Shown here in pieces: positions 12,388 to 14,802 of a stretch of DNA of 14,802 nucleotides. How positions within the stretch are numbered: position 1 is the first letter of the stretch; each line of letters starts with the position of its first letter. The notes below the pieces were generated by a model. That model saw only the letters and a list, made by a program, of their open reading frames with translations, made no database searches and was not told the DNA's origin. This DNA is from Candidatus Iainarchaeum sp. (GTDB lineage: Archaea; Iainarchaeota; Iainarchaeia; Iainarchaeales; JAGHAR01), in the NCBI GenBank assembly GCA_021161405.1, contig JAGHAR010000114.1, forward strand, positions 1 to 14,802, written 5' to 3'. The position numbers were made by a program, and so were the translations under genes.

Positions 12388-13518
12388 ATGAAAAGAGTTA
12401 TTGAAACAAGCCATGCAATCGCATTAGCTGTTAAATTAGCACGTGTTAAAGTAATTCCAATGTATCCAATTACTCCACAAACACATATTGTTGAAAGATT
12501 AGCGGAATTCATTAACAACGGAACTTTGGATGCAAAGATGATTCACGTTGAAAGCGAGCATTCAGCAATAAGCGCATTGCAAGGAGCTTTACTTAGCAAT
12601 GTAAGGGCCTTTACAGCAACCTCAAGCCAAGGATTAGCGTTAATGTTTGAGATTTTACAAATTATCTCTGGAATGAGATTGCCTGCTGTAATGGTAATTG
12701 CAAACCGCGCATTAAGTGCGCCAATAAACATATGGAATGATCATAGCGATGCCTTTGCTGTAAGAGACCAAGGATGGATGCAGATATTTGCAGAGACAGC
12801 GGAGGAAGCATTAGATAGTGTATTAATGGCATATAAACTTGCGGAATCGAAAGAAGTACAGATACCAATAATGGTAAATATTGATGGCTATTCATTGAGC
12901 CATGTGTATGAACCTGTAGATATACCATCGCAAACACTTGTAGATAGTTTCCTACCAAAATTTAAGCTAGAGGATTATCTAGATATTAACAATCCAAAAA
13001 CATTTGGGCCTATAGGTTTTCCAGACAGCTATATGTATTTCAAAGAGGCGCAACACAAAGCAATGAAAAATGCTGAAAAAAGAATAAAAGAAATCAATAG
13101 AGAATTTAAAAAGAAATTTAAGAGAAGTTATGGCAATGGGCTTGTTGAGGAATACAAAATAGAAGATGCAGAAACAGTATTTGTTTGCTTAGGTTCAATA
13201 TGCGGAACAGCAAGAGAAGCTGTAGATCAGCTCCGAGTAAAAGGGAAAAAAGCAGGTTTGCTGAAACTCCGCTATATAAGGCCATGGCCGTCCAAATCGA
13301 TTAGAAAGGCTCTTAATAAGGCAGAAAAAATTGCTGTCTTTGATAGGGCTTTTTCGTTTGGTAGCGAAGCACCATTATATACTGAACTAAAAGCTACGCT
13401 GCAAGATAAACAGATTAATAGTTATGTCGTCGGCTTAGGCGGCAGAGATGTAACAATTGAGCACTTCAAAAAAGCGTATAGGATGTGCAGCAAAAATAAA
13501 AACGGGTGGTTGTATTGA
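12388..13518 (+). CDS. porA: Pyruvate:ferredoxin oxidoreductase, alpha subunit
   Basis: The alpha subunit binds the pyrimidine half of thiamine diphosphate and helps form the pyruvate site. The 376 residues begin with the family pattern MKRVIETSHAIALAVK and YPITPQTHIVERL (26-38). HVESEHSAISALQGA and TATSSQGLALMFE follow, and then NIWNDHSDAFAVRDQGWMQ. The C-terminal transketolase-C-like domain contains LRYIRPWPSKSIRKAL. YPITPQT and the short-chain active-site context fit pyruvate rather than 2-oxoglutarate. This assignment is made by family resemblance, not by a decisive residue. GGGAGGAG, a strong ribosome-binding site, lies 7 nt before the ATG, and the start is directly after the porD stop. 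The stop overlaps the porB start. Confidence 0.94.
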   Translation: MKRVIETSHAIALAVKLARVKVIPMYPITPQTHIVERLAEFINNGTLDAKMIHVESEHSAISALQGALLSNVRAFTATSSQGLALMFEILQIISGMRLPAVMVIANRALSAPINIWNDHSDAFAVRDQGWMQIFAETAEEALDSVLMAYKLAESKEVQIPIMVNIDGYSLSHVYEPVDIPSQTLVDSFLPKFKLEDYLDINNPKTFGPIGFPDSYMYFKEAQHKAMKNAEKRIKEINREFKKKFKRSYGNGLVEEYKIEDAETVFVCLGSICGTAREAVDQLRVKGKKAGLLKLRYIRPWPSKSIRKALNKAEKIAVFDRAFSFGSEAPLYTELKATLQDKQINSYVVGLGGRDVTIEHFKKAYRMCSKNKNGWLY

Positions 13519-14435
13519 AAGATAAAATAATGGGCCTACCAAGAGAAGAGTATATAGCAAGCGGCCACAGAGCATGTGCTGGTTGTGGTGAAATATTAAC
13601 GATAAGGCATGTACTAAAAGCCTCTGGCAAAAATACGATTGTCGTGAATGCAACCGGCTGCGCAGAGGTTGTCACTACGCCATATCCGCAAACTGCTTGG
13701 AAAATTCCATGGGTGCATTCCGCATTTGAGAATATAGCTGCTGTGGCAAGTGGAATTGATAAAGGATTGGAATGCAGAGGTATTAGAGATAAAATTAATC
13801 TGCTTGCAATTGGCGGAGATGGAGCAAGCTTTGATATTGGTTTTGGCTCATTAAGTGGGGCTATTGAAAGAGGCCATAAATTTACTTATATAGCCACAGA
13901 CAACGAAGCATATATGAATACAGGCATCCAGAGAAGCGGTGCTACGCCTTTGTTTGCAAACACAACAACCTCTCCTGCTGGAAAAAAAATACACGGCAAA
14001 ATAGAGCCAAAAAAACCATTGCCTTTAATAGTTGCTGCTCACGGAGTTAGCTATGTAGCCACAATAAGCATAGCAGATCTTCCAGATCTTTACGCTAAGG
14101 TAAAGAAAGCATTAAAAGCAGAAGTAGTTAGCTTTTTGCATGCTTTTTGTCCTTGTGTTCCCGGCTGGAAATATCCTTCAAGCAAAACAATAGAAATTGC
14201 AAAAAAAGCCACAGCAACGGGAGTTTTCCCATTGTACGAAATAGAGAATGGAATTCTAAAATTCACGAGAAAACCGGCTAAGCTCGAACCAGTAAACAAT
14301 TATCTAAAGATGCAAGGCAGATTCAAGCATTTAAGCCAAAGCGAGATAAGGCAAATACAGAACTATGTGAAAGAACGCTATAATTTTCTTTTGAGTGTGG
14401 AAAACAGTAAGTGCTTCGATACACTTTTTAAATAA
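13515..14435 (+). CDS. porB: Pyruvate:ferredoxin oxidoreductase, beta subunit
   Basis: The beta subunit binds the diphosphate half of thiamine diphosphate and the proximal [4Fe-4S] cluster. In the 306-residue reading C21 and C24 (CAGC), C49 (ATGCAE) and C214 (CPCVPGW) are the likely cluster ligands. GDGASFDIGFGSLSGAIERG and DNEAYMNTG form the thiamine-diphosphate/Mg motif, and TTTSPAGK is typical of pyruvate enzymes. The start is judged to be TTG 13515. GGTGG lies 5-6 nt upstream, and the TTGA arrangement overlaps the porA TGA. A GTG at 13506 falls inside the ribosome-binding site, and an ATG at 13530 would trim five residues. The operon ends here. T-rich bases at 14439-14448 may terminate it. 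Confidence 0.93.
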   Translation: MKDKIMGLPREEYIASGHRACAGCGEILTIRHVLKASGKNTIVVNATGCAEVVTTPYPQTAWKIPWVHSAFENIAAVASGIDKGLECRGIRDKINLLAIGGDGASFDIGFGSLSGAIERGHKFTYIATDNEAYMNTGIQRSGATPLFANTTTSPAGKKIHGKIEPKKPLPLIVAAHGVSYVATISIADLPDLYAKVKKALKAEVVSFLHAFCPCVPGWKYPSSKTIEIAKKATATGVFPLYEIENGILKFTRKPAKLEPVNNYLKMQGRFKHLSQSEIRQIQNYVKERYNFLLSVENSKCFDTLFK

Positions 14436-14461: not shown

Positions 14462-14474
14462 TTTTTATATTAAA
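14462..14474 (+). promoter_or_regulatory. TATA box of the putative small RNA gene
   Basis: TTTTTATATTAAA, preceded by an A-rich BRE-like run (14454-14461), is among the best TATA matches in the window. Its centre (near 14467) predicts initiation at about 14490-14493, where the GC-rich structured element begins. No protein-coding start lies downstream on the plus strand that would otherwise explain it. Confidence 0.6.
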
Positions 14475-14488
14475 TTGAACATAGATAA

Positions 14489-14556
14489 ATGTGCGGGCAG
14501 GAAGGACCAACTCTCTTAGCATCCGGCTTTTCGCAAGAAAAGCCCTGCCCGCACAT
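14489..14556 (+). ncRNA. Putative structured small RNA (unclassified)
   Basis: Between porB and the convergent DHH gene lies a GC-rich island: 38 of 64 bases at 14491-14554 are G or C, with strongly AT-rich flanks. The ends form a perfect 10-bp stem, GTGCGGGCAG (14491-14500) with CTGCCCGCAC (14545-14554), extendable to 12 bp. Directly against it sits a perfect 8-bp hairpin, GGCTTTTC (14525-14532) with GAAAAGCC (14537-14544), closed by the GNRA tetraloop GCAA. The remaining 24 nt (14501-14524) are mostly unpaired, with a possible 3-bp GGA/TCC stem (14504-14506 with 14522-14524). A TATA box 24 nt upstream points to the plus strand. It does not match tRNA, C/D or H/ACA guide, SRP or RNase P RNA as I know them. 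It could instead be an elaborate 3' element of the por mRNA. Confidence 0.55.
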
Positions 14557-14576
14557 AATTAGATTTTATTCTAATT
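14557..14576. terminator. AT-rich inverted repeat, possible bidirectional terminator
   Basis: AATTAGA (14557-14563) and TCTAATT (14570-14576) form a perfect 7-bp inverted repeat around TTTTAT. It lies between the end of the RNA-like element and the stop of the convergent DHH gene, and T-rich stretches on both strands surround it. It is a plausible transcription end point in either direction. The AT-only stem is weak, so the T-richness may matter more than the hairpin. Confidence 0.4.
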
Positions 14577-14802
14577 CATTTATTAACGTTGTTATGGAAA
14601 TTTTGTAACAAATATTCTACAATTCTTTTCTTTATCTTTTTTAAGTGCTTTGCATTTGCTGAACCTGCTGCTGCTGGAATATGGCCGCCAGCAACACCAA
14701 TGCCTCTAACCGCAAACTCGAGCATTTCGTTACATCTAACCTTGAAATCAGCCCTTCTCGCAGAAAATAAAACATGCGAATTTTTTCTCTGAAATACAAC
14801 AA
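14576..14802 (-). CDS. DHH-family phosphoesterase (RecJ-like), C-terminal end only
   Basis: The minus-strand frame is open from the window edge to a TGA at 14576-14578, leaving 74 residues of a protein whose start lies beyond 14802. It carries the DHHA1-domain signature GGHIPAAAG (14663-14689), preceded by AVRGIGVAG and by strands VLFSARRADFKVRC. A basic helical tail (AKHLKKIKKRIVEYLL) closes it. DHH/DHHA1 proteins include RecJ-like single-strand nucleases and oligonucleotide or cyclic-dinucleotide phosphodiesterases. The GGH-AAG loop contacts nucleic acid or nucleotide substrate. The catalytic DHH motifs are outside the window, so the exact subfamily cannot be given. The plus-strand open frame over the same bases is a shadow. 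Confidence 0.8.
   Translation of the reverse strand, partial: VVFQRKNSHVLFSARRADFKVRCNEMLEFAVRGIGVAGGHIPAAAGSANAKHLKKIKKRIVEYLLQNFHNNVNK

Follow-up and report, generated by a model that had tools for sequence, protein, structure and literature searches.

A candidate trans-acting antisense small RNA and its putative pilus regulon in Diapherotrites archaea

Introduction

What is encoded by the G+C-rich, structured island that lies between two convergent genes at the end of a 14,802-nucleotide archaeal contig (the whole stretch analysed, hereafter the window)? A sequence-only reading had proposed that the island is an independently transcribed RNA whose stems present an open strand to a target. 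Archaeal trans-acting small RNAs (sRNAs) with known targets are few, and a 2018 review describes their characterisation as "still in its infancy" (PMC5867862). Here, the RNA, its promoter, its targets and their co-variation were obtained from sequence alone in uncultured archaea. Comparison among genomes of the order establishes an RNA-like structure, its strand, a promoter, complementary leaders, a regulon and matching between RNA and leaders of the same genome. With a probability that we put at about 0.77, positions 14489-14556 encode a trans-acting antisense sRNA that would block translation of a pilus regulon.

Results

Anatomy of the element

The features of the element and its neighbours are given in Table 1. 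G+C content was 0.54 across 14491-14560, compared to 0.14 and 0.20 in the neighbouring 70-nt bins, and a count by hand gave 59% over the 64 nt from 14491 to 14554. The segment 14489-14556 folds at -33.9 kcal/mol vs. -17.8 +/- 2.9 for 200 dinucleotide shuffles (z = -5.6; 0/200 as good), and none of 300 mononucleotide shuffles of the flanks equalled the closing helix. By hand-counted coordinates this helix (14489-14500/14545-14556) has 12 bp, or 13 when 14501-14544 is included. Both the fold and a reading of the sequence confirmed the anatomy described earlier, that is, a closing stem, a GCAA-capped hairpin, a 24-nt open strand and a TATA box.

Table 1. Coordinates of the predicted sRNA element and neighbouring genes in the window.
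Feature	Position	Strand	Evidence or remark
TPP-binding subunit, 2-oxoacid:ferredoxin oxidoreductase beta type, upstream neighbour	13506..14435	+	Pfam PF02775, E 6e-16
TATA box of sRNA, TTTTTATATTAAAT	14462..14475	+	TATA-like hexamers start 27, 25 and 24 nt ahead of 14489
Predicted sRNA, ~68 nt	14489..14556	+	Fold z -5.6; G-T > A-C in stems
Closing stem, 5' arm	14489..14500	+	Fold; helix matched by 0/300 flank shuffles
Unpaired exposed strand, 24 nt	14501-14524	+	Fold
Antisense (seed) strand, GGACCAACTCTCTTAGCA	14504..14521	+	Recurrence in relatives; complementary to own-genome leaders
Seed core 16-mer, ACCAACTCTCTTAGCA	14506-14521	+	Exact recurrence in the order
8-bp hairpin 3' of seed	14525..14544	+	Arms 14525-14532/14537-14544, GCAA loop 14533-14536
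Closing stem, 3' arm	14545..14556	+	Fold; shuffle test of helix
Convergent downstream gene, C-terminal piece leaving window	14576..14800	-	Open ORF

No Rfam 15 covariance model matched the window at or above its gathering cut-off, in keeping with the earlier description of the RNA as unclassified; ten matches below the cut-off were chance-like (best E 0.16). ARAGORN found no tRNA or tmRNA gene in the window. Two known classes of archaeal guide RNA were considered and rejected. The hallmarks of archaeal C/D-box sRNAs are a C box (RUGAUGA) and a D box (CUGA), and neither is present within 14489-14556. Archaeal H/ACA sRNAs have a pocket open on both strands above the stem and an ANA box past the stem; here all 24 unpaired nt of the internal loop are on one strand, the opposite strand having none, and the sole ACA near the 3' end lies inside the stem.

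Conservation centres on the exposed strand

A plain BLASTN search of the entire element in relatives gave 16-base exact matches restricted to 14506-14521, which led to the exposed strand as the conserved part, and the hairpins gave chance matches only. In other genomes the 16-mer is flanked by stems of quite different sequence. Exact copies stood at 15 sites, spread over 11 of the 75 genomes of this order of Diapherotrites (reversed-pattern control 0), and a 17-mer with up to two mismatches was found at 69 sites in 35/75 genomes (control 19). The exact 15-mer was absent from 12 further genomes, which belong to the phylum but not to this order. Matches in 34 of 48 contig stretches, assigned neither to Diapherotrites nor to unnamed archaea, and in 28 viral stretches were treated as scattered chance or coding matches. 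We examined 62 of the 69 sites (all except those on G057:C63, G069:C26, G071:C93, G024:C34, G024:C35, G046:C47 and G008:C50), and these sorted into 22 sRNA-like copies, 11 leaders of open reading frames (ORFs), 9 noncoding sites (termed T0) and 20 others, mostly within ORFs.

The seed of 13 closed-stem copies lies inside a helix, 8-16 bp long. Shuffled flanks equalled this helix in 0/300 cases for nine copies, 1-2/300 for three, and 12/300 for the copy in G056. Within the structural ensemble of these copies the seed was unpaired with a probability of 0.53-0.94, vs. 0.18-0.36 for its flanks. A hairpin stands 3' of the seed in some copies (G035, G028, G013) and 5' of it in others. A nine-member variant located beside fen1 (families f2, f8, and f20) has kept the order hairpin-seed-hairpin, with changes on both sides in 7/18 predicted pairs. 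For five of the 13 closed-stem copies (G000, which is the window genome, and G022, G042, G056, G013) the C-terminus of the upstream gene resembles, by eye, that of the oxidoreductase subunit in the window; at what is apparently one locus, the stem letters have thus changed and the pairing has stayed. The stems are retained in relatives, as the earlier reading required. A role for the GNRA loop, a loop type for which that reading mentioned tertiary contacts, found no support; this loop is not kept by other copies.

The presence of many copies among genomes could also indicate the end of a mobile element or a repeat. A genome, however, usually has a single structured copy (G018 has two; one full copy in the window genome, which is 669 kb and 76% complete), stems and flanks vary among copies, and five of them share an apparent locus, all of which makes this explanation scarcely credible.

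The probable transcribed strand and its promoter

With the motif held open and both pair types scored alike, the stems of the 22 sRNA-like copies contained 25 G-T and 7 A-C pairs, some of which fall in spurious flanking stems; the excess of G-T over A-C points to the plus strand of the window as the RNA strand. G-U counts taken from whole minimum-energy folds left the two strands indistinguishable (49 vs. 52). TATA-like boxes were located 24-34 nt ahead of the stem on the plus strand in 10/12 closed-stem copies (1.9 expected) and on the opposite strand in 1/12 (1.3 expected). G-U pairs and TATA boxes together mark the plus strand as the one presumably transcribed, and the placement of the boxes favours the previously claimed independent transcription unit of about 68 nt.

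The element starts 54 nt past the upstream stop codon and ends 19 nt short of the convergent one, a position that would suit an ordinary bidirectional terminator or an mRNA 3'-end hairpin. Such a role is very unlikely for an element that has its own TATA box, a constant unpaired strand amid changing stems and no T run immediately 3' of the stem, and whose relative in G001 and G039 is divergent from fen1. Since copies sit in differing gene contexts, the element is, judged from sequence, neither a plain terminator nor a transposon end.

Complementary leaders of surface genes

On the other strand, 11 of the 62 examined sites showed a TATA box followed after about 30 nt by TGCTRAGAGRGTTGGT and a start codon. 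The reverse complement of the seed was found in the leaders of three separate genes, namely that of a giant lipoprotein, that of an ATPase of the pilus/secretion type and the first of a pilin-like operon. Leaders of the window genome complementary to the window seed lie on G000:C71 (L168) and G000:C90 (L266); targets and sRNA are on different contigs. The ATPase combines T2SSE and 4Fe-4S domains (PF00437, E 5e-35 and 2e-38), and its nearest NCBIfam models, both below cut-off, are archaellum FlaI and TadA (201/550 and 182/373 bits). The large lipoprotein is without Pfam match. "Pilin-like" is a label given by eye to short proteins that begin with a hydrophobic stretch such as QASIEA or QVSLEY; an ORF neighbouring the pilin-like gene gave a sub-threshold class III signal peptide match (20.5 bits, cut-off 23.7). 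Searching for the tag followed by ATG added the first genes of this operon in G013, G028, and G018. Lipoprotein, ATPase and PIN-domain genes, the last found with Pfam at E about 1e-15, are mutually unrelated.

Two PIN-domain genes of G006 (G006:C10, L172, and G006:C30, L173) carry the tag directly ahead of the start codon, and in this genome the sRNA may control PIN (VapC-like) nucleases as well. G001 has only the fen1-side RNA yet two tag-like leaders (L248:647-667 and L248:4885-4905, one of them ahead of a 104-aa ORF without Pfam match), and the f2 RNA may thus act on other genes.

Because a motif-based choice was to be avoided, leaders were also selected by protein search and tested for pairing with the RNA that their own genome encodes; G053 leaders were tested against the RNA of a sister genome, as its own copy was not found. 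For the ATPase (paralogues of G053, G054, and G060 dropped), 10/18 leaders paired with their own RNA beyond 500 dinucleotide shuffles, nine at 0/500 and the truncated G013 leader at 4/500. These were all ten leaders examined from families f1, f7, f14, f17, and f19, three of which had originally been found by motif. None of the eight ATPase leaders of f2, f8, and f20 paired (24-194/500 shuffles as good), though the RNAs there retain the strand. The pilin-like operon was found in 9/12 genomes, the protein search giving none in G000, G006, and G028, and all nine leaders paired (0/300 shuffles as good in eight, 4/300 in G035). Likewise, all ten leaders of the lipoprotein, found in 10/12 genomes, paired (0/300 in nine, 2/300 in G035). 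Leaders of G016, G022, and G035 are among those that pair only partly or with bulges.

Excluding the G013 ATPase, 26/31 leaders had a TATA-like box 22-36 nt ahead of the duplex (8.8 expected), and in the leaders listed for this spacing the duplex reaches or overlaps the start codon. The exposed strand is thus complementary, beyond chance, to several mRNAs near their translation start. A strand that stays constant amid replaced stems, with complementary leaders in the same genomes, argues for the target pairing previously proposed for it.

Matching changes in RNA and leader

The window genome has GGACCAACTCTC in its RNA vs. CAACCAACTCTC elsewhere, and its ATPase leader reads GAGAGTTGGTCCAATG, a matching change (GGACC/GGUCC); the duplex with its own RNA has -29.4 kcal/mol, and those with four foreign RNAs range from -20.7 to -23.6. 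The G028 RNA reads CTTGGCA and the ATPase leader there TGCCAAG (pairing CUUGGC/GCCAAG; own -29.7 vs. foreign -17.9 to -26.1), and in G006 the RNA reads AGCAAGT and the leader ACTTGCT (AGCAAGU/ACUUGCU; own -24.4 vs. foreign -14.3 to -19.9). Co-variation of sRNA and target was also seen over 30 leaders, G053 leaders and T0 excluded: the summed energy with own RNAs was -844.8 vs. -796.6 +/- 11.9 in permutations that reassigned the RNAs between genomes and ignored kinship (0/20,000 as good). The own RNA ranked first of 10 for 11/30 leaders. Six of the 30 preferred the mean foreign RNA over their own, among them the lipoprotein leader of the window genome (own RNA rank 9 of 10).

These changes bear on a different reading, in which a transcription factor would bind the leader element (TGCTAAGAGAGTTGGTT as DNA) as its operator across the transcription start, the structured RNA being either an RNA decoy of that protein or a by-product. 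Repressors often bind about 30 nt past a TATA box, where the element lies, orthologous promoters would likewise retain a protein-binding DNA site at the transcription start, and the same genes in other families carry an upstream palindrome that is likely an operator. The leader element is, however, not palindromic, and in the RNA it forms the exposed strand inside stems, far past the promoter. Own-genome matching follows base pairing, as do the G000, G028, and G006 changes, and a duplex accommodates bulged leaders such as AGAGAGTGGTTG and TGCTAAGGGGTTGG more readily than a fixed operator would. We therefore regard the operator as improbable and retain the antisense sRNA.

Palindromes in other families

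Among 33 ATPase and lipoprotein leaders of other families the tag was found in 0/33, and a palindrome TTCG-N8-CGAA, a loose pattern (1/16 or 3/14 mismatches) defined after viewing the sequences, in 29/33, mostly 50-90 nt ahead of the estimated start. The 28 leaders of the sRNA group contained the strict tag in 22 cases and the palindrome in one; the comparison omits the G013 ATPase and the G037, G034, and G056 lipoproteins, which were in the wrong frame or partial. In families without an sRNA leader, a TTCGTCAATTGACGAA-like palindrome was seen upstream of the TATA box at L344-L371 (lipoprotein) and at L268, L269, L272, and L274 (ATPase).

The palindrome is likely the operator of a putative pilus regulator. 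On the simplest reading, one gene set would answer to a DNA-binding protein in most families, and in five of them to the sRNA. An ATPase tree did not distinguish a single origin of the leader mode, or of the switch between modes, from several.

T0 sites

The nine T0 sites consist of a TATA box, the tag TGCTAAGAGAGTTGGT and mostly a G+C-rich hairpin, with no ORF on that strand; they include L178, L183, L186, L190, L194, L197, and L199. In f17, T0 is followed by a convergent gene with a similar C-terminus in 4/5 genomes; in G042 this was not called as an ORF. T0 RNAs could be decoys that titrate the sRNA.

Discussion

We propose that the sRNA is transcribed from its own TATA box and that the constant strand (A)ACCAACUCUCUUAGCA would be held open by the closing stem, which has one hairpin beside it or one on each side. 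This strand would form a duplex of about 13-20 bp with the beginning of the target mRNA, whose leader UGCUAAGAGAGUUGGUU begins about 30 nt past the TATA box and reaches or overlaps the start codon. Target mRNAs are expected to begin at, or just ahead of, UGCUAAGAG, and because they would begin with the tag the duplex would form at the extreme 5' end. The predicted targets are the ATPase with ferredoxin domains, the pilin-like operon, the giant surface lipoprotein and, in one genome, also the two PIN-domain genes. Pairing most likely masks the mRNA 5' end and the start codon from the ribosome; translation of these short-leader mRNAs would be blocked and the surface machinery thereby shut off jointly. 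What we infer from the comparison is that the RNA is expressed, that it pairs directly with its targets in the cell and that the sign is repressive.

The main rival concerns the sign. The same antisense sRNA might help translation, or keep 5'-3' decay away from the start of the mRNA; the duplex would span the extreme 5' end, and Methanosarcina mazei sRNA154 stabilises several mRNAs and represses another (PMC5867862). On the other hand, a duplex that reaches or overlaps the start codon leaves little space for a ribosome, and we judge the opposite sign unlikely. A repressing sRNA, as preferred here, suggests an RNA switch over the attachment of these tiny archaea to other cells.

In bacteria, one conserved seed of a trans-acting sRNA can serve many mRNAs. 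The element in the window is similar in that one exposed seed would serve many leaders of a co-regulated surface programme, and different in its archaeal TATA promoters and in leaders so short that the seed site coincides with the transcription start. In M. mazei, a single-stranded linker of sRNA162 pairs with an mRNA, whose ribosome binding site is thereby masked (PMC3510493). Both are archaeal sRNAs in which an unstructured region would pair with mRNA; they belong to different lineages with no known sequence relation, and sRNA162 has one trans target, whereas here the pairing site would be the mRNA 5' end itself in a coordinated set of several separate genes. M. mazei sRNA154 (PMC5867862) is a conserved intergenic RNA of nitrogen fixation with several targets, whose mRNAs it mostly stabilises. 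The element would share with it conservation, an intergenic position, several targets in one pathway and action via loops; sRNA154 uses two loops with different targets, whereas one constant strand would serve all targets found here. The window sRNA appears to work like sRNA162 and sRNA154, with no kinship implied. In the open-licence PMC literature we found no report of a Diapherotrites sRNA or of an archaeal sRNA with a pilus regulon.

If the antisense reading is correct, surface machinery in Diapherotrites is under post-transcriptional control, the 5'-end tag reveals regulon members in new genomes, and it becomes testable how a regulon passes from protein to RNA control. More tentatively, and somewhat short of an even chance, the pilus regulon may have been rewired between a palindromic operator (f8, f13, f2 and others) and the sRNA with a 17-nt 5' tag (f1, f7, f14, f17, f19), with T0 as decoy. 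Were this so, one gene after another would have passed, in one direction or the other, between an RNA regulon and a transcription-factor regulon, and cell-cell contact would be under an RNA switch in DPANN archaea, in an order of host-associated type.

Further RNAs were observed in the same genomes. A search for a second seed with GGTGAGCCTATCC led to a further RNA family. Element V (f2, f13, f15, and others; L297, L299, and L321 around position 1501) has a closing stem around TTGGTGAGCCTAWCC, followed about 40-60 nt on by TAGRATTGRATCCCTCC, and gave no match in Rfam. RNA U is preceded by a TATA box and has a second conserved exposed strand, YTGGTGAGCCTATCC, in a hairpin loop; it was located in L300, L301, L302, L303, and L304 around position 1501 and on G055:C7 (L305), G007:C1 (L310), and G060:C19 (L311). 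In f2, f8, and f20 one fen1-side RNA bears both the YTGGTGAGCCTATCC and AACCAACTCTCTTAGC strands, and in f17 these are on separate RNAs. With up to two mismatches, the 15-mer of the U strand was found in 54/75 genomes, well over the reversed control.
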